DNA of 64,000 nt from Ignavibacteriaceae bacterium. GTDB taxonomy: Bacteria; Bacteroidota; Ignavibacteria; Ignavibacteriales; Ignavibacteriaceae. Numbering within the stretch: position 1 is the first letter of the stretch; each line of letters begins with the position of its first letter. The notes beneath the pieces are model-generated. The model searched no databases and was not told where the DNA came from. It was given only the letters and a program-made list of their open reading frames with translations. Below are positions 390 through 23,910 of the stretch, one piece after another. The stretch spans positions 1 to 64,000 of the forward strand of contig JACAFB010000002.1 in NCBI GenBank assembly GCA_013388545.1, given 5' to 3'. Both the position numbers and the translations under genes were made by a program.

Positions 390-440
390 TATTTTTCTTT
401 CCTGCCATATGACAACAAATGATTTCCTTACAATGAATGA

Positions 441-536
441 CTACTGACTTAGTAACAACCAATTTCCCAATGACTATCAATGACTTAATGACAACCAATT
501 CCCAGCATCAAGTATCCAGCATCCAGCATCTGTCCT
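441..536. repeat. Dispersed copy of the composite 8-mer/7-mer intergenic repeat
   Basis: CAATGACTATCAATGACTTAATGACAACC followed by CCAGCAT CAAGTAT CCAGCAT CCAGCAT at 502-529. Confidence 0.85.
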
Positions 537-4053: not shown

Positions 4054-5184
4054 CTATTCATTTAATACTTCTTTATATAATTCAATGTAATCATTTATAG
4101 AATTACTTAAAGAATAATTTTTAACCATAAAATCGGAACCATTAGAAGCAATAGATTTTGCATAATCAAAATCATCATGCACTTTTTGTAAAGTATTTGT
4201 TAAATCAAGCTCATTATTAGCAATAAAACCTGTGAAATTATCAATAATAAAATCCTGTGAGCCAAAATTATCTGACATGATAATTGTTGGAATTCCTAGA
4301 AACAGTGCTTCTGCAGCTGAATTACTCCAACCTTCTCTTGAATTAGATGGCAGTACGAAACATTTTAGAACCTGGTAATAATCAAAAATTTCTTTCTTTT
4401 CTTCTAATAGTATTACTTTTTCTTTTAGGTTAAGTTTATCTATGATACGAGCCAATTCATCTCTTTCAGGACCTCTTCCAATTATTAATAATTTTTTTTC
4501 ACTGATTTTCAATTTGGAAAATGCTCTTATAAGTAAGTCAATTCTTTTAAGTTTAACTAGATGACCAAAATAACCAATGACAAAATCGTTGTTAGAAAGA
4601 TTTAGTTCAAGATTTACTGCTTCTCTCTGACGATTAAAGTTAATTCTTTTATGGTCAAAATAATTTCTGGTTAATAATTTTTTTTTGTTAACTATTCTAT
4701 AGTCTTTTTCAAGTGATAGTATAGATACTCTTGAGATTCCGGAAAATCCTAAAAAGTATTTATTATATAAAAAACTTCTTATCCAAATTTTTAGTTTCTT
4801 CTTAAAGGATTGTCTGTCTACATATTCAAGACCACCTCTTCGGGTTTGAACAAGTTTATTTTTTTTTCGGCAAAACAGTGATAATAATATCAACCTTGGA
4901 GTAGAGTCATGGTGATGGTAAATCTTATATTCTGTAAGTATTTTTGCTAGGCCTGGCTTAGGTATTAGATCAAAAAATGAATTGGTTTTAAGATCAATTG
5001 CTTGAAATCCCAGTTCTCTAATTCTTCTAACATAATGAGAATCAATATTGAATGTAGCAATTGCTAATTGATAATCAGGTTGATCTTTAAATGCCAGGAA
5101 AAGATTATAAAGAGCTCTTTCTTTACCGCCAACGTCACCTGACCCGAGAAAATGAATGATTGAATACTTAACCTTCTTATTCAC
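4054..5184 (-). CDS. Glycosyltransferase family 4
   Basis: ORF 376 aa; FLGSGDVGGKERALYNL, VIGYFGHLVKLKRIDLLIRAF, LPSNSREGWSNSAAEALFLGIPTI. Confidence 0.88.
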   Translation of the reverse strand: MNKKVKYSIIHFLGSGDVGGKERALYNLFLAFKDQPDYQLAIATFNIDSHYVRRIRELGFQAIDLKTNSFFDLIPKPGLAKILTEYKIYHHHDSTPRLILLSLFCRKKNKLVQTRRGGLEYVDRQSFKKKLKIWIRSFLYNKYFLGFSGISRVSILSLEKDYRIVNKKKLLTRNYFDHKRINFNRQREAVNLELNLSNNDFVIGYFGHLVKLKRIDLLIRAFSKLKISEKKLLIIGRGPERDELARIIDKLNLKEKVILLEEKKEIFDYYQVLKCFVLPSNSREGWSNSAAEALFLGIPTIIMSDNFGSQDFIIDNFTGFIANNELDLTNTLQKVHDDFDYAKSIASNGSDFMVKNYSLSNSINDYIELYKEVLNE

Positions 5185-14647: not shown

Positions 14648-15793
14648 TTATTTTTTTGTATTAATGTTTTCAATGATACCTATAACTTTTGAAATAGTTT
14701 CTACTTCAAGTGCGCCATAAATCGGTAAACATAAAACTTGCTCACCAATTTTGTTTGCAACTGGTAAATTTTCTTTCCCGGCACTTGGCAGACTTCTGTA
14801 AGTTGGCATATTGCTGATCAAAGGATAAAAATATCTCCTTGCATAAATGTTATGTTTTTTCAGTTCATCATATAATTTTTCTCTGCTTGCACCAAATTCA
14901 TTCTCATCAATTAAAACGGGTAAATAAGCATAGTTATAATCATATCCATCAAAATTATTAAATACTTTTATGCCTTTTATATCCTTTAACTTTTCAAAAT
15001 ATGTTTCAGCAGCTTTCTTTCTGTTTGCAATTTCTTCTTCCACTATTTCAAGACTTAGTAAGCCAATTACACTCTGAAATTCATTCATTTTACCGTTAAT
15101 ACCGGGTGCAATAACAGTAAGCTCATCTGCAAAACCAAAATTTTTCAGATAATCAATTCGCTTTTTAAGTTTTTCATCTTTTGATATTATCGCGCCGCCT
15201 TCAAAAGTGGTAAACAATTTAGTCCCATGGAAACTTAAAACCGACATATCACCTTCAAGCAGCAAATTTTTATTTTTCATTTTTATGCCAAAAGCGTGAG
15301 CTGCATCGTAAATTACTTTTAATCCATACTTATCTGCTATATCCTGTATCGCTTCAGTATCACAAGGATGGCCGTATACATGAACAGGCATAATGGCAGT
15401 GGTTTTAGGTGTAATAAGCGCTTCTATCTTAGTCGGATCTATATTCATAGTTTTCTCTTCAATATCACAAAACACCGGTGTAATGCCGTTCCATTTCAAA
15501 GCGTGTGTTGTTGCAACAAAACTAAAGGGAGTTGTGATAACTTCACCGGTTATTCTTAATGCCTGTAATCCAACAACAAGCGCCAGAGTAGCATTAGCAA
15601 ATAAATTAATATGTTCAACATTAAAATATTTTGCTAATTCTTTTTCAAACTGCTGATGGAAAGGACCATTGTTTGTAAGAATTTTATTTTGCCAGATCTG
15701 TTCAAGATATGGATGCAGTTTTTCCAGCGGTGGTAGATTTGGTCGCGTTACATAAATTGTTAGTTCTTTTTTCTGCATAAAATTATCGGGCAA
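14648..15793 (-). CDS. DegT/DnrJ/EryC1/StrS family PLP-dependent sugar aminotransferase
   Basis: ORF 381 aa; ILTNNGPFHQQFEKELAKYF, AIMPVHVYGHPCDTEAIQDIADKYGLKVIYDAAHAFG, VLSFHGTKLFTTFEGGAI (PLP-Lys motif). Confidence 0.93.
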   Translation of the reverse strand: MPDNFMQKKELTIYVTRPNLPPLEKLHPYLEQIWQNKILTNNGPFHQQFEKELAKYFNVEHINLFANATLALVVGLQALRITGEVITTPFSFVATTHALKWNGITPVFCDIEEKTMNIDPTKIEALITPKTTAIMPVHVYGHPCDTEAIQDIADKYGLKVIYDAAHAFGIKMKNKNLLLEGDMSVLSFHGTKLFTTFEGGAIISKDEKLKKRIDYLKNFGFADELTVIAPGINGKMNEFQSVIGLLSLEIVEEEIANRKKAAETYFEKLKDIKGIKVFNNFDGYDYNYAYLPVLIDENEFGASREKLYDELKKHNIYARRYFYPLISNMPTYRSLPSAGKENLPVANKIGEQVLCLPIYGALEVETISKVIGIIENINTKK

Positions 15794-17249
15794 AAATAGC
15801 TTTAAGTTTTTGAATCGGGATCATTTTCTTAAGTTCCAGGTACGGCTCAAGCCTAAAGATTTCAGATAAAACAGCTGCGATTAAAAATCCTGTCGCTGTC
15901 TGAACAATCAGCATTGGAATTGGATTCAGTTTTACCAGGAAATTAAGTGAATAAACTACTAATCCCATTATTAAAGAAATCAACAGCGTTGGTATGATAT
16001 CGGATACCTGCTCTTTAATTCCATAATTTATTAATACACCTGACCATAAACTATTTAAATAATAACTGATAAAAGAGGCAACTAAAATACCAATAAGCAT
16101 AGGTATTATTCCAAGCCAGATTCCAATTAGTATGAGAGGCACTCCAAGTAAAATTTTAATTATTTCAAGCTTTAGAAAAAGATCAGAACGTCCTCTGACT
16201 TTCAATATATTCAGATTTAATGAATGCAGTGGATAAGACATTCCTGATAAAGCCATTAGTTGAAGATATGGTACAGCAGGACGCCATTTTTCGCCAACAA
16301 GTGAAATAATCATTGCTTCGGAAGAAGCTGCCATCCCGATCATCAATGTAAATGACAATAAAGTCGCAGTTTTAATAAGCTTTTTATATCCTTTTTTTAG
16401 TGTTTCAGTATCTTCATTAATACTTGAAAGTAACGGATAGCTTATCCTGCTGAATACTGCTGTGATATTTTGCGAAGGCAGTCTGTTAAATCCCTCTGCC
16501 CTGGTGTAATATCCAAGCTCGGCAGGAGAGAAGAACTTTCCGATTACCAGGTAATAAATATTTCTGTATGTAGTATAAATCAGCCCTGATAAAATAAGTT
16601 TTGAACCAAAAGGAAATAATTCTTTTAATACCTTTCTGTTGAACATCGCTTTTGGTAGCCAGTTGTTCCAGTACCATAATAAAGCCGAAGAGAATAGAGA
16701 TCTGAATACAGATTGCCAGACTAAACTCCATACTCCATAACCAAAATATGCCATCCCTATTCCGGCAGCTCCGGATAAAGAGTTAGCTATTATTGATACT
16801 TTTGTCTGCATCTTAAAATCAAGACGTTTGGTTCTTATTGTTCCCTGTATTATTGATACTGAACTGATGATCAGGTTTATTCCCATTACTCTGATAATTG
16901 GCACAAGTTCGGGCTGGTTAAAGAAACTGCTTATTAAAGGAGCAGCGAAAAAAAGTATTAAATAAAAAACAATACCGGCAAATAAATTAAAATAGAAAAC
17001 AGTTGAGTAATCTTCGTCCGTGCAATCATTTTTTCTTACTAATGCCTGGCTGAATCCGCTGTCAATAAATGACTGTGATACAGCAAAAACAATCGCAATC
17101 ATTCCGACCAGTCCGAATTCATAAGGGGAGAGGAGCCGGGCAAGAACAATTCCTATTACAAAATGAATAACCTGGTAGGAGATATTGTCAATAAATCCCC
17201 ACTTAAAACTGGAGATTGTTTTCTTTCTGAAGCTTGCTTTTTCGTTCAA
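15783..17249 (-). CDS. Lipopolysaccharide/oligosaccharide flippase (Wzx-like, MOP superfamily)
   Basis: ORF 488 aa, multi-pass; RKKTISSFKWGFIDNISYQVIHFVIGIVLARLLSPYEFGLVGMIAIVFAVSQSFIDSGFSQALVRK. Confidence 0.92.
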   Translation of the reverse strand: MNEKASFRKKTISSFKWGFIDNISYQVIHFVIGIVLARLLSPYEFGLVGMIAIVFAVSQSFIDSGFSQALVRKNDCTDEDYSTVFYFNLFAGIVFYLILFFAAPLISSFFNQPELVPIIRVMGINLIISSVSIIQGTIRTKRLDFKMQTKVSIIANSLSGAAGIGMAYFGYGVWSLVWQSVFRSLFSSALLWYWNNWLPKAMFNRKVLKELFPFGSKLILSGLIYTTYRNIYYLVIGKFFSPAELGYYTRAEGFNRLPSQNITAVFSRISYPLLSSINEDTETLKKGYKKLIKTATLLSFTLMIGMAASSEAMIISLVGEKWRPAVPYLQLMALSGMSYPLHSLNLNILKVRGRSDLFLKLEIIKILLGVPLILIGIWLGIIPMLIGILVASFISYYLNSLWSGVLINYGIKEQVSDIIPTLLISLIMGLVVYSLNFLVKLNPIPMLIVQTATGFLIAAVLSEIFRLEPYLELKKMIPIQKLKAIFAR

Positions 17250-17291
17250 TTAAAATCTTTTAATTATTCAGTTCAACAATTCATCAATTTT

Positions 17292-17817
17292 CTATTTACT
17301 CCACCGGAGTTTTGAAAAATGCTTATCCGTTATCAAGCATCCGGTATCCAGCATCTGGAATCAGGTCTCCGGCATCGATTCAATCCCAACAAATGACTCA
17401 ATGACCTAATGACTAAATGTCTGTAATTTTAAATTTCCCTCTGTGTAATCTGTAGTAAAATCCTATTTAACCCCTCCGGTGTTTTGAAAAATGCTTATCC
17501 AGCATCAAGCATCCAGTATCCAGTATCAAGCATCCAGCATCAGGCATCTGGAATCAGGTCTCCGGCATCGATTCAATCCCAACAAATGACTCAATGACCT
17601 AATGACTAAATTTCTAAAATTTTAAATTTCCCTCTGTGTAATCTGTGATAAAATCCTATTTAACCCCTCCGGTGTTTTGAAAAATGCTTATCCAGCATCA
17701 AGCATCCAGTATCCAGTATCAAGCATCCGGTATCTGGCATCCGGCATCGATTCAGTCTCAACAAATGACTCAATGACCTGATGACTAAATGACTTATTGA
17801 CTCAATGACTAATAAAC
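17292..17817. repeat. Three tandem copies of a ~170-193 bp composite intergenic repeat (7-mer array + spacer + 8-mer array)
   Basis: Copies begin CTATTTA(C/A)(T/C)CC... at 17292, 17463 and 17656. Each holds GTTTTGAAAAATGCTTATCC, a phased 7-mer array and AATGACT 8-mers. The first two also share AATTTCCCTCTGTGTAATCTGT. Confidence 0.95.
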
Positions 17818-20061
17818 TCAATGCCCCCCTTTATCTTCACCCCGATGATAATAATAGTAGTAATTGTAGTAATAGCCGTAAGACTTTTGATAGTTGAAAT
17901 CATTCAGCACAGTGCCAAGCAGATTATGAGGATTCAGTTCAAACATTCTTCCATATGCACGTAAAAATACATCCATTGGAGTGCTTTCTGCTTTAGATAC
18001 CAGCACAGTTCCGTCAGAAATATTGAAAAGTATTTCTGCATCCGTTACTGCGATAAAAGGAGGGGAGTCAAGCACGATATAATCAAACTTGCTTTTAAGT
18101 TCCTGGATCAGCTCTTTCATCCTGTTCGAGCCCAATAATTCCGATGGGTTGGTAGGAATTGACCCGCTTGTTATAAAACTTAGATTTTCAAGATTTGATT
18201 TCCTGACTAAAGAGTCCGCCGTTCCTTTTGAAAAAAGTAAATCCGTAAGTCCGGGTGACTTTTCACTTTGAAATAAATTATGAACTCTTGGCTTTCTCAA
18301 ATCACAATCCAGAAGCAAAGTATTGTGTCCTGCCTGTGCAAAGCTGCCCGCAAGGTTAAGCGAAACGATTGTTTTACCCTCGGATGGAAGCGAGCTTGTA
18401 ATCAGTACTGTCTTAATCGGTTCTTCATCTACCCTTGCATATTGAATGCGGGTCCTTAAGGCTTTAAATGACTCCGATGCATTGGAATTCGGCTTCACTG
18501 AAACAATGAATTCATCACCTTTATTTTTATTATCAACAAGGCTGTCAATATGGGGAATCCAGGATAAAACCTCAACACCTTTTTTCTCAAGTTCTGCCGG
18601 ATCTTTGATTGAAGTATCGAATGCATACCTGACAAAAACAAACAAAGCTGCTAATCCGAAGCCGGCCAGTATCCCGATAAGCATGACTGAAGTTCTGTTA
18701 GGTTTAACAAGCGTAGCTGTATCTGTTCCCGGATCAAGAATATATGCATCTGAAAGTCTTGTTCTCTCTTTGATCTCAGTTTCCTGGTACTTTTCTTCAA
18801 TTTGGGTGTAAAGCTTTTCATTTGTTGATTTCTCTCTTAATAATTTTGCAAGCTCCAGTCCAAGATCGGGCAGGGCATTAAGTTTTGTCCGGTTTATTTC
18901 TATCTCTTTGGTGTATTCCTCAATAGTCGAATTCAGTGTAATACGCTGCATATTAGCGTCAAATATTCTCTGAATTATCTCTTTCTTTTCTATTGGTGTG
19001 TTCGCACTTAGGTTTGCAAGTACTATGTCTGACTGGCTTTTTCTTATTTTCTCCAGCGTAGTCAACCTCTCATTGAAAGCATTATCGATCATTCTCTTTT
19101 CTTCAGGACTCCTGGCATTGCTTTTATCAATATCGCGCTGTATTTCCAGAGTATTAATCTTCTTTTGTATCTCGATTAATGATGCTTCGTTTATCTGCAG
19201 TTCAACATAGTTTACCAGTGTCGAATCATATTCAGCAAGTTCTCTTTCAAGCGAACTGATTGATTGCTGATTTGTCTTTAATCCTAATCGTGCCTGCCTG
19301 ATTGCTTCTTCAGCGCTGCGGATGTTTTCGGTAAGGTAAATGCTGTATGAATTTATATCTGAAAATCCATTTCTTTTCTGAAAATCACCAATTTCTGTTT
19401 CAATTGAATTTAGTTCGTTCAATTTGTTTTCACGTTCAACTAAAAGGAATTTCTTCAGTGTCGAAAGGTCCTGTTTCTTTAATTCATTTGAATAATCTAT
19501 GTATGCCTGGGCATATGTATTAGTAATAAGCAGCAGTTCTTCTGAAAAAGCACCCTCGCAGGAAATAGTAATTACATTGAGTTCTTCAATTTGCTCAATG
19601 TTGACTGCCTTGGATAATTTCTTTCTGAGATTGTTAACACCTATGGGTGTAAGGTCGCTGCTTCCGGGATATTTTCTTAAGAAGGAGAAGCTGCTTTTGT
19701 CTTTAACAGTCAGGAATGAATCTATTAATGCTAAAGCTACTTTATTACGGATTTCATAACTTTGAAGGAGCTGGATAAGGTTTGGTATTAATCCGTAATT
19801 ATAAAATCCCGGCTCACTCATAAAATTGCCCTCAAGCACGTCCTTATTTGCCTGTTCGATTTTAAGAGTTGTAGTTGCGCGATAAATTCTGTCGGCAGTT
19901 CTCCAGTATATAAATGTTGCTACTGCTGCGGCAAGTAAAATCAGTGCAACTGCTATCCAGTTTTGTTTTATTATATGAAAATATTTCAGGATTTGATCTT
20001 TTACTTCATTATCCTGAAGATTAGGATTTGTCTGCTTGTTTAATTCAGTATTCATTTGCAT
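17818..20061 (-). CDS. Polysaccharide biosynthesis tyrosine autokinase (Wzz domain + BY-kinase, Wzc-like)
   Basis: ORF 747 aa; N-terminal Wzz-type TM region, coiled coil, VLITSSLPSEGKTIVSLNLAGSFAQAGHNTLLLDCDLRKPRVH (Walker A/A'), C-terminal Tyr cluster YGYYYNYYYYYHRGEDKGGH. Confidence 0.96.
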   Translation of the reverse strand: MQMNTELNKQTNPNLQDNEVKDQILKYFHIIKQNWIAVALILLAAAVATFIYWRTADRIYRATTTLKIEQANKDVLEGNFMSEPGFYNYGLIPNLIQLLQSYEIRNKVALALIDSFLTVKDKSSFSFLRKYPGSSDLTPIGVNNLRKKLSKAVNIEQIEELNVITISCEGAFSEELLLITNTYAQAYIDYSNELKKQDLSTLKKFLLVERENKLNELNSIETEIGDFQKRNGFSDINSYSIYLTENIRSAEEAIRQARLGLKTNQQSISSLERELAEYDSTLVNYVELQINEASLIEIQKKINTLEIQRDIDKSNARSPEEKRMIDNAFNERLTTLEKIRKSQSDIVLANLSANTPIEKKEIIQRIFDANMQRITLNSTIEEYTKEIEINRTKLNALPDLGLELAKLLREKSTNEKLYTQIEEKYQETEIKERTRLSDAYILDPGTDTATLVKPNRTSVMLIGILAGFGLAALFVFVRYAFDTSIKDPAELEKKGVEVLSWIPHIDSLVDNKNKGDEFIVSVKPNSNASESFKALRTRIQYARVDEEPIKTVLITSSLPSEGKTIVSLNLAGSFAQAGHNTLLLDCDLRKPRVHNLFQSEKSPGLTDLLFSKGTADSLVRKSNLENLSFITSGSIPTNPSELLGSNRMKELIQELKSKFDYIVLDSPPFIAVTDAEILFNISDGTVLVSKAESTPMDVFLRAYGRMFELNPHNLLGTVLNDFNYQKSYGYYYNYYYYYHRGEDKGGH

Positions 20062-20077
20062 TGCTTTATTGTTATTT

Positions 20078-20605
20078 TCAGTTATTGCGGAGTATCAGAT
20101 AGATTAGCGTACCGAGTGAAGTTAAAAGCGATAAAATTGTCGTAACCGGTGCAATACTCTCATACCAGTATGAAGCCACCGGCGCTACTATAACATCTCC
20201 GTTTTTTAATATTGTTTTTTTCATCTCTGCAGATTTAATAAAATCTTCGCTGAAAAGATCATCGTAATCAATCACGATTATTTCGTCTTCTTTCACTCCA
20301 AGTGTGTCGTTCTTGAAACGTACTATCCTGATGTCTTCAAGATCGGCTGTTTCGGTTAATCCCCCTGAATAGGAGAGTAATTCAAGCAGGTTAATTCCAT
20401 CCTGAATTTTATAAATACCCGGATTCTTTACCGAGCCCCAGAGTTTCACCTCTATTGAAGGTAAAAACCTTTTGCTGTAATCGAAAATGTTTGGTGCGGT
20501 TTTTAATTCTTCGCCTTCAAAATTTATATCTAACTGACCGTAAACAGGTATAGTCAGCAGTACCGTTATAGTCAGGAAAAGAAAATTCTTAATAGTGTTT
20601 TTCAT
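20078..20605 (-). CDS. SLBB-domain polysaccharide export-associated protein
   Basis: ORF 175 aa; signal peptide, VKLWGSVKNPGIYKIQDGINLLELLSYSGGLTETADLEDIRIVR (SLBB), C-terminal hydrophobic helix. Confidence 0.82.
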   Translation of the reverse strand: MKNTIKNFLFLTITVLLTIPVYGQLDINFEGEELKTAPNIFDYSKRFLPSIEVKLWGSVKNPGIYKIQDGINLLELLSYSGGLTETADLEDIRIVRFKNDTLGVKEDEIIVIDYDDLFSEDFIKSAEMKKTILKNGDVIVAPVASYWYESIAPVTTILSLLTSLGTLIYLILRNN

Positions 20606-20664
20606 TTTTTGTCTTTGTTAGTTGTATAATATTCTTTTTTTAATGGATCATCCATTGGTTTGAT

Positions 20665-21717
20665 TCACTTCAAATTATAATACGCTTTGTACCAGTTGAT
20701 GAATTCTTCTATACCGTATTCAAGGTTGCGGTGATTTAAAGTAATTCCTGCTGAGTTTAGTTTACTTATGTCGGCATAGGTATTTTCAACATCACCGGCG
20801 GGAATAGGGAGGAGCTCAAGCTTTGCTTTTCTGCCGGTTTTGTTTTCAAGCATTGAAATCATTGTCATTAGTTCAACGGATTGATGATTACCGATATTAA
20901 ATATTCTGGATTCAGAATTTCCCTTCGTCTCTTCATTCCTGGAAATCTTTTCGATCAGTCCCGATAATCCTTTAATGATATCATCAATGTAAGTAAAATC
21001 CCTTTTCATTTTACCATAATTAAAAACCTTAATTGGTTCATTATCGAAGATGGCTTTGGTGAAAATAAAAAGCGCCATATCAGGTCTGCCCCACGGTCCG
21101 TAAACGGTAAAGAATCTCAGTCCCGTTGATGGTATTCCGAATAAATGCGAATATGTATGTGCCATCAGTTCATTCGACTTCTTTGTAACGGCATACATTG
21201 AGATCGGGTTATCAGTTCTGTCATCTTCGGAAAATGGTATCTTTTTATTTGACCCGTAAACTGAACTCGATGAGGCATAAAGTAAATGCCTCAGGGGATA
21301 TTTTCTGCAGGCTTCCAGTATATTCAGAAACCCTGTAACGTTGCTGTCAATATATGCCTGTGGATTTTCCAGAGAGTATCTTACCCCGGCTTGTGCAGCA
21401 AGATTTACAACCAGATCAAATTTTTCGCGTTTGAATAATTCATTCAGACTATTTCCGTCACTTAAATCAAGCTTAATAAATCTGTAATTATTAAATCGGC
21501 TGCTTTGTACAACTTTATTTTCAATTTGTGAATTCTTCTCAGCTTTAAGGATGGCAGCTTTATCGATTCCTGATTCTTTTAACCTGTCGTACTTTAGGTT
21601 TACATCATAATAATCATTGATGTTATCCAATCCAACAACATCGTATCCTTCCTGCAGAAGCTTATTAGCAAGATGAAATCCGATAAATCCTGCAGTTCCG
21701 GTTATTAATGTTTTCAA
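20665..21717 (-). CDS. NAD-dependent epimerase, UDP-glucuronate 4-epimerase-like
   Basis: ORF 350 aa; MKTLITGTAGFIGFHLANKLLQEGYDVVGLDNINDYYDVNLKYDRL, YASSSSVYG, YAVTKKSNELMAHTYSHLFG. Confidence 0.92.
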   Translation of the reverse strand: MKTLITGTAGFIGFHLANKLLQEGYDVVGLDNINDYYDVNLKYDRLKESGIDKAAILKAEKNSQIENKVVQSSRFNNYRFIKLDLSDGNSLNELFKREKFDLVVNLAAQAGVRYSLENPQAYIDSNVTGFLNILEACRKYPLRHLLYASSSSVYGSNKKIPFSEDDRTDNPISMYAVTKKSNELMAHTYSHLFGIPSTGLRFFTVYGPWGRPDMALFIFTKAIFDNEPIKVFNYGKMKRDFTYIDDIIKGLSGLIEKISRNEETKGNSESRIFNIGNHQSVELMTMISMLENKTGRKAKLELLPIPAGDVENTYADISKLNSAGITLNHRNLEYGIEEFINWYKAYYNLK

Positions 21718-21765
21718 ATCAATTATGCTTTATTAAAAATTTCTGTTTCTAATTTTAATTCTAAC

Positions 21766-21865
21766 CCGGCATCCGGTATCTGACTTAATGACTTTCATTA
21801 CAACAAATGACCTGATGAGTACAATTGTCTACCAATGACTCAATTACAACGAATGACAAGTATTC
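21766..21865. repeat. Dispersed, partly degraded copy of the composite intergenic repeat
   Basis: CCGGCAT CCGGTAT at 21766-21779 followed by TTAATGACT...AAATGACCTGATGA...CAATGACTCAATTACAACGAATGAC. Confidence 0.75.
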
Positions 21866-21898
21866 TAATAACCTCATCTTTCCGGAAAGATTCATCAT

Positions 21899-22111
21899 TT
21901 ATGCAGCAGTGCTCTTTAATAAAATAGAGATTGGTAAGTTTTTAATTTCACTAACTTTAAGAATAGAAAAACCCAGGATATTCCCCTGATCGTCTACTTT
22001 CTCCATAACAGCATCATTTTCCGTTTCCTTATAGTACCCCTCTTTCTGATCAAATATCACTTCCAGAAAATCTGCTTCTTTATCAAACCAAACTTTTATT
22101 GCTTTTTCCAT
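21899..22111 (-). CDS. DUF2283 domain protein
   Basis: ORF 70 aa; KVWFDKEADFLEVIFDQKEGYYKETENDAVMEKVDDQGNILGFSIL. Confidence 0.75.
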   Translation of the reverse strand: MEKAIKVWFDKEADFLEVIFDQKEGYYKETENDAVMEKVDDQGNILGFSILKVSEIKNLPISILLKSTAA

Positions 22112-22410
22112 ATTGTTGCGCCTTTTTTAATTGTGTCGGTAAAATATGCAGTTATTATAAAGATTTCAGCACCTTTTACTTTCACAACCACACAAAGATA
22201 TTTTTCATTAACAGGTGTAGATTTATAAAATTTATAGTGTAATTCAACTTCAGCATCAGTTTTAGATCTTATCACAAAATCTGGCAAAGCCAATGTATCT
22301 TCAATCTTGTTTATTTGTTATCTCCTTTCAGGGTGGCTTTCTTCCAGATGCTTTCTGCGTTAATCTGTAAATCGTATTCTTCGGTTCTGGTAATCAGCGA
22401 AAATGGTCAT
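22096..22410 (-). pseudogene. Probable degraded small protein (HPE...ETL..PDFV.RSKTD family, upstream partner of DUF2283) with two in-frame TAA codons
   Basis: One reading frame from ATG at 22410: MTIFADYQNRRIRFTD*RRKHLEESHPERR*QINKIEDTLALPDFVIRSKTDAEVELHYKFY...IITAYFTDTIKKGATIWKKQ; TAA at 22362-22360 and 22320-22318. Confidence 0.65.
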
Positions 22411-22451
22411 TTCATTAAACTTCGGGTCTTAATGACCTTGTGGTTCCTTCT

Positions 22452-22598
22452 TTTCTTTAACAACAAATGACCTAATGACTAAATTATAACAAATGACCCA
22501 ATGACTACAATTGTCTACCAATAACTCATTGACCACAAATATTCTGGCACCAAATTCAGGTTCCCAGTATCAAGTATCAGGCATCCAGCATCCGATAC
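22452..22598. repeat. Dispersed copy of the composite intergenic repeat
   Basis: AACAAATGACCTAATGACTAAATTATAACAAATGACCCAATGACT ... then CCAGTAT CAAGTAT CAGGCAT CCAGCAT at 22564-22591. Confidence 0.85.
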
Positions 22599-22614
22599 AG
22601 TCTGTGTCTGCTTT

Positions 22615-23910
22615 TTATAACCTGTTATCAACCAGCTCCTTCGGAAGAACTCCTTTCACATCAAAAATAACTTTACCGTTTTTTGATATCTCACTAAAAT
22701 CGAGATTCTTAAATTCATTATGAGCTACCGCAAGAACAATTCCATCATAAGATTTAAGCGACAGATCTTCAGCTTTGAGAAGTTCAATTCCATATTCATG
22801 CTTTACCTCTGCCGGGTCAGCCCATGGATCAAGCACATTAACCAAACATCCAAACTGATTAAGCTCATTGATAATGTCAATCACACGTGAATTTCTGATA
22901 TCGGGACAATTTTCCTTAAAAGTAATTCCTAAAACCAGCACTTTTGCATTATGAATTTTATGTTCTTTCTTTATCATAAGTTTAACAAGCTGATTTGCAA
23001 CAAACACTCCCATTCCGTCGTTGATTCGTCTTCCGGCAAGAATTATTTCGGGGTTGTATCCAAGATGAACTGCTTTATGTGTGAGGTAATACGGATCAAC
23101 TCCGATGCAGTGACCACCAACCAGTCCCGGTCTGAATGGAAGAAAGTTCCACTTTGTACCCGCTGCTTCAAGAACTTCAAGTGTATCTATATTCATTAAA
23201 TCAAAAAGCTTTGACAGTTCATTAACGAAAGCAATATTGATATCTCTTTGTGTATTTTCAATTACCTTAGCCGCTTCTGCAACCTTTATTGAAGACGCAA
23301 GGTGTGTCCCGGCAGTTATTATAGATTTATAAAGCTCATTTACAGTTTCTGCTGATTCCTGATTGCTTCCGCTGACCACTTTCTTTATGTTATGAACTCT
23401 GTGTTCTTTATCTCCCGGGTTTATTCTTTCAGGACTGTAGCCGCAGAAAAAGTCTTTGTTAAACTTCATTCCACTGAATTTCTCAAGCACAGGAACGCAC
23501 ACTTCTTCTGTGCAGCCGGGGTAAACTGTTGATTCATAAATTACAATATCTCCAGAGGATAATACTTTTCCAACTGTTTCGCTTGCCTTGATAAGAGGAA
23601 TTAAATCCGGTCTTTTATATTCATCTATTGGTGTTGGTACAGTTACAATAAAAATCTCAACTGCCCTTAAATCCTCGATTCGATCGGTGTATTCAAGTTT
23701 TTTTGACGATGCAAGTTCTTCTTTACTTACTTCAAGTGTTCTGTCTGAACCTGATCTGAGCTCTTTGATTCTGTTTGAGTTGATATCAAATCCAATGACC
23801 TTAAATTTCTTTCCGAATTCGACTGCAAGAGGGAGACCAACATAACCTAGTCCTATTACTCCGATAATTATTGATTTGTCTTCAATTTTTTTTCTTAATT
23901 GGTTGCTCAT
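22615..23910 (-). CDS. Nucleotide-sugar dehydrogenase (UDP-GlcNAc/GalNAc 6-dehydrogenase type, TviB/WbpO/WbpA-like)
   Basis: ORF 431 aa; [79 protein letters not shown]. Confidence 0.94.

Follow-up and report, generated by a model that had tools for sequence, protein, structure and literature searches.

Tandem heptamer and octamer arrays in the wzc-wzx gap of an Ignavibacteriaceae exopolysaccharide cluster: a probable intergenic VNTR with local segmental duplication

In an exopolysaccharide gene cluster of an Ignavibacteriaceae bacterium, the wzc-type gene is separated from that of a wzx-type flippase by a block of short tandem repeats of two different periods, which fills the gap. Is this block, which a first-pass annotation assigned to no recognised feature class, a novel type of element, or does it belong to a kind of repetitive DNA already described in other bacteria? 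The cluster also encodes a glycosyltransferase, an aminotransferase, SLBB export, an epimerase and a UDP-sugar dehydrogenase. The window analysed is the whole 64,000-nt stretch at positions 1 to 64,000 of contig JACAFB010000002.1. The source assembly (2.9 Mb, 88 contigs, 83% complete) was searched genome-wide by patterns and BLAST.

Direct reading of the sequence revealed a composite unit present three times in tandem (window 17292-17817; Table 1), with the numbers of heptads (7, 10 and 8) and the six octads of copy 3 as originally annotated. The composite is made up of an array of the heptamer CMRGYAT, an array of the octamer NAATGACY and a non-repeat linker. In copies 1 and 2, the end consists of 3-4 octads and the linker, and octads take the place of the linker in copy 3. 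Degenerate heptads, such as CTGGAAT, CAGGTCT and CCGTTAT, occur among the units.

The lengths of the copies are defined by two anchors. The lead common to all copies, TTTTGAAAAATGCTTATCC, begins at 17310, 17482 and 17675, corresponding to start-to-start spacings of 172 and 193 nt; GGCATCGATTCA, which spans the end of the heptamer array and the spacer, starts at 17371, 17564 and 17743, with spacings of 193 and 179 nt. The length difference between neighbouring copies is exactly 3 heptads in one case (21 nt) and exactly 2 heptads in the other (14 nt). The first-pass annotation correctly reported that the first two arrays differ by three heptads, but its period difference of 22 nt is 21 nt by the anchors. 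Alignment of the three copies located all indels in the heptamer array, the copies being otherwise 85-94% identical. TRF output features a 193-nt unit in 2.2 copies with 93% matches, in addition to 7- and 8-nt arrays. A 9-nt doublet, CTGTGTAATCTGTR, lies within the linker (window 17441-17454 and 17634-17647).

Table 1. Coordinates of the repeat block, adjoining genes and sister sites in the window
Feature	Position	Strand	Remarks
Block copy 1	17310..17481	.	172 nt by anchor; lead, 7 heptads, octads, linker
Block copy 2	17482..17674	.	193 nt; lead, 10 heptads, octads, linker
Block copy 3, truncated	17675..17817	.	Lead, 8 heptads, 6 octads replacing linker; end is the wzc stop codon
Heptamer array CMRGYAT	17327..17375	+	7 units (3 degenerate)
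Heptamer array	17499..17568	+	10 units
Heptamer array	17692..17747	+	8 units
Octamer array AATGACYN	17392..17421	+	About 4 units
Octamer array	17585..17611	+	3 units
Octamer array	17764..17811	+	6 units
Block linker	17623..17693	.	71 nt; other copy 17430-17500, partial 17292-17328
Wzc-type chain-length determinant/tyrosine kinase gene	17818..20061	-	Tyr-rich tail; Wzz, GNVR, AAA_31 domains
Wzx-type flippase gene	15783..17249	-	PF13440/PF01943, Polysacc_synt_3; next gene in transcription direction
Sister site	436..530	+	Octamers then 4 heptads, same orientation, without linker
Sister site	21766..21860	+	2 heptads then degenerate AATGAC words
Sister site	22462..22591	+	Two octamer pairs then 4 heptads

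Both words exceed chance expectation in the window. Measured against shuffled sequence, CMRGYATCMRGYAT has 28 matches at no more than one mismatch (0.71 expected), and AATGACNNAATGAC has 14 matches (0.61 expected). When periods 5-12 were scanned over the whole window, only period 7 (two places) and period 8 (two places) rose above threshold. All of these places fall inside the block region, and Markov shuffles give approximately zero.

Three further gaps of the exopolysaccharide cluster feature both words, in either order and in the same orientation, without the linker. Elsewhere in the assembly, the heptamer is found in a handful of places (contigs C37, C60, C68 and C88) that have no shared flanks, and the octamer pair in one (C64). 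The 2.9-Mb genome carries about 10 repeat sites, four of which are within 23 kb of the exopolysaccharide locus. The 71-nt linker has no other match of meaningful score genome-wide, which indicates that the tandem block results from local duplication and is not a dispersed element.

The search of relatives proposed in the first-pass annotation was also run, and showed that the words recur patchily. The heptamer, repeated three times, is present in 8 of 41 near relatives, a set that includes the window's own genome and no second genome of the host genus. At the level of the phylum, four heptamers occur in 16 of 297 genomes and three octamers in 5 of 297, and reversed control patterns score zero in almost all of these genomes. 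Over the 297 genomes, co-occurrence of the two words per genome is not significant when the window's own genome is omitted (Fisher p 0.19; p 0.025 when it is included). The octamer is carried by 15 of 31 species in a single distant genus of the phylum, with 0 to 84 trimers per genome.

Of the non-redundant arrays at non-viral loci, 80/86 fall outside any ORF of 100 aa or longer, in surrounding DNA that is 82% ORF. The corresponding binomial p of 2e-51 assumes independent arrays and is therefore overstated, though the direction is clear. Random placement within coding regions, which the first-pass annotation had named as evidence against its view, is accordingly not what was found. Arrays between co-directional genes exhibit no strand preference (octamer 17:16, heptamer 9:12, non-viral loci). 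Placement statistics were computed without IMG/VR viral loci. Octamer matches in IMG/VR (36 loci) were dropped as evidence, since the reversed control word gives 29 loci; the composite was found in neither order in viral contigs, where the reversed control was likewise absent.

A few arrays lie inside genes and stay in frame. For instance, hypF of a relative (G010; L029 1500-1535) carries an in-frame heptamer array accounting for about 13 extra residues, SFIRHQASSIQHP, relative to solved HypF proteins. Lipoprotein-like genes of the window's genome and of another relative, G001 (L072 ~4082-4109 and L017 ~1501-1528), share the heptamer-derived stretch QVSSIQHQVSS; these genes of two genera are apparently orthologous. 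Inverted arrays were also noted. At L069 (G000:C88; 6845-7048 and contig end), inverted heptamer arrays produce an extended hairpin (DNA fold z -8.6), beyond which GC climbs from ~0.25-0.45 to 0.51-0.56, and an ABM-domain gene occurs at the contig end. This site possibly reflects acquired DNA or a chimeric join in which a shared repeat was the point of fusion. In the octamer-rich genus (L115, L121, L124 and other loci), octamer arrays are often arranged as inverted pairs ~20-100 nt apart and are hairpin-capable. Other degenerate 7-9-nt words, such as AAATTCCAAGCACC, CACCGATTACCGAT, TTTCGAATTTCGAG and CACTAAGGCACCAAGG, adjoin the arrays in the flanks of L081, L095, L098 and L134-L137.

Taken together, these data suggest that the block is probably a non-coding intergenic VNTR of the LSSR/STRR kind, made by slippage and combined with local segmental duplication. 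Whole-unit copy differences, degenerate units, intergenic placement, the lack of strand preference and patchy presence all argue for this origin. The VNTR reading is also supported by several null results: RNA folding at the block is unremarkable (z -1.18 and +0.98), Rfam covariance models gave nothing near gathering scores at 16500-23000, and neither a promoter nor a terminator signal was recognised at the block. Short degenerate 7-mer and 8-mer words would grow and shrink by whole units via replication slippage, tolerating substitution at fixed positions (M, R and Y in the heptad, the last two positions in the octad). One stretch comprising heptads, octads and linker may then have been duplicated in tandem twice, producing the higher-order repeat, the copies of which would subsequently have gained or lost heptads independently. 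Arrays would persist where they are harmless, mainly in gaps between genes. The block may also affect wzc-wzx co-expression as a side effect.

Slipped-strand gain or loss of whole units, already advanced in the first-pass annotation, is supported by the exact differences of three and two heptads. Its strongest outside support comes from published array changes in Burkholderia pseudomallei. In this species, an intergenic array of the same heptamer, written CTGGATG, lost exactly 8 units within one patient during one infection (PMC4313173), and 6-9-bp intergenic arrays have change rates of ~5e-5 to 2e-4 per locus per generation, with only the motif being copied to other sites (PMC1853098). Two observations stand against the slippage and duplication model. 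Slippage alone fails to account for the recurrence of the two words, and for their occurrence side by side, in several phyla, and the clustering of four of about 10 sites near the exopolysaccharide locus is not predicted by neutrality on its own.

The location of the block invites a functional interpretation, in which the number of heptads and octads in the wzc-wzx gap would modulate the flippase and downstream genes at the level of transcription or translation, and thus vary the surface polysaccharide. Such a contingency (phase-variation) element would fit a site within an exopolysaccharide operon, as products of this type vary in many bacteria, and an array that starts ~80 bp upstream of the wzx start with unit lengths that are not multiples of 3. 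It is nonetheless unlikely, because arrays elsewhere have no strand preference and are also found downstream of genes, the block has no recognised promoter and, being outside a reading frame, it would provide no on/off frameshift. The phased words may alternatively serve as sites for a DNA- or RNA-binding regulator, similar to what has been proposed for the TAACTGA repeats of Beggiatoaceae (PMC4679880). Each unit has conserved core positions and free positions, and the words recur across genera. We consider this role very unlikely, as the arrays feature neither a strand bias nor a fixed distance to start codons, 33 of 41 close relatives do not have three heptamers in a row, and no defined gene set adjoins the arrays.

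The presence of the same words in distant phyla, the concentration of four sites at the exopolysaccharide locus and the in-frame insertion of a heptamer array in hypF of a family member could also denote a mobile or transmissible repeat, either MITE-like or brought in together with exopolysaccharide genes by horizontal transfer. The pattern expected of a MITE or another dispersed mobile element, one element with conserved ends at several sites, was not observed. Neither the composite block nor its linker is dispersed. Terminal inverted repeats and shared flanks were likewise not seen, and sister sites have only the words in common. This is the least probable of the interpretations considered.

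The recurrence of the words outside the phylum was analysed by scanning the species genomes of GTDB for a pair of AATGAC words with two heptads following within 32 nt. Ten stretches were identified in about seven genomes, belonging to Acidobacteriota (2 MAGs, several contigs), Chloroflexi (2), Desulfobacterales, WOR-3 and one Ignavibacteria MAG; less than one match would be expected by chance, according to a rough estimate that assumes independent bases and 40% GC. We regard this cross-phylum pairing as a lead rather than a result. Slippage in one genome does not explain why these words, and their pairing, recur in unrelated lineages. It is conceivable, if rather improbable, that both words are part of a small recurring vocabulary of degenerate 7-9-nt words written into the intergenic DNA of many phyla by some process (a particular polymerase, an end-joining pathway or horizontal spread), the CMRGYAT-AATGAC pairing being one signature of it. 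The recurrence of the words and of the word pair in unrelated phyla can be tested with public genomes. As for the block itself, reading it as a slippage-made VNTR assigns an element of striking appearance to the ordinary VNTR DNA of bacteria, and provides a ready-made length marker within a surface-polysaccharide operon.

Intergenic VNTRs have already been reported from other bacteria. Published intergenic arrays have units of 6-9 nt, among them imperfect heptamers with variable positions (PMC1853098, PMC4692102, PMC4679880), and the claim that the block represents no recognised feature class finds no support. The first-pass annotation had also stated that a match to described repeats would count against it. 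Such a match was largely obtained for the kind of repeat and, in the case of the heptamer word, by sequence as well. As in long simple sequence repeats and VNTRs, the tandem units fall within 5-11 nt and the arrays are longer than chance, the three paralogous copies of the block differ from one another by whole units (21 and 14 nt), and the arrays are predominantly intergenic (80/86). A literature search for the words as text returned two results, the deletion in B. pseudomallei and a yeast paper on an unrelated subject.

Several known systems resemble the block in part. The Xanthomonas GGGAATC/(GGGANTN)n and Nostoc GGGGA(C/T)T heptamer SSRs likewise form imperfect intergenic arrays with conserved and free positions; they consist of 2-26 units, vary in length and sequence among close relatives and show no replication-strand preference (PMC4692102). 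However, these heptamers are G-rich, quadruplex-forming and position-biased relative to ORFs, and have no described octamer partner (PMC4692102), whereas neither word of the block contains a run of at least three G or C. The TAACTGA repeats of Beggiatoaceae, Cyanobacteria and some Bacteroidetes are 7-base intergenic arrays distributed patchily over unrelated phyla (PMC4679880). They differ in featuring another word, in an invariant unit usually located just upstream of start codons and in one orientation in the main host (PMC4679880), while the CMRGYAT and NAATGACY arrays have no strand bias and occupy varied positions. PMC4692102 and PMC4679880 cite cyanobacterial STRRs (Calothrix heptanucleotides) and the long simple sequence repeats of Mrazek et al. 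These are short tandem intergenic units among which heptamers are prominent, and a slippage origin has been proposed for them; in these citing accounts the words are different and mixed 7+8 composites are not mentioned. A further resemblance is to the VNTRs of B. pseudomallei. These belong to another phylum, and degenerate units, two mixed periods and higher-order amplification distinguish the block from them. In both cases, however, 6-9 bp units are mainly intergenic, the motif occurs at several sites without flanks and change involves whole units (PMC1853098). Moreover, the B. pseudomallei CTGGATG array (PMC4313173) is built of the same heptamer, as its reverse complement, CATCCAG, is a rotation of CCAGCAT.
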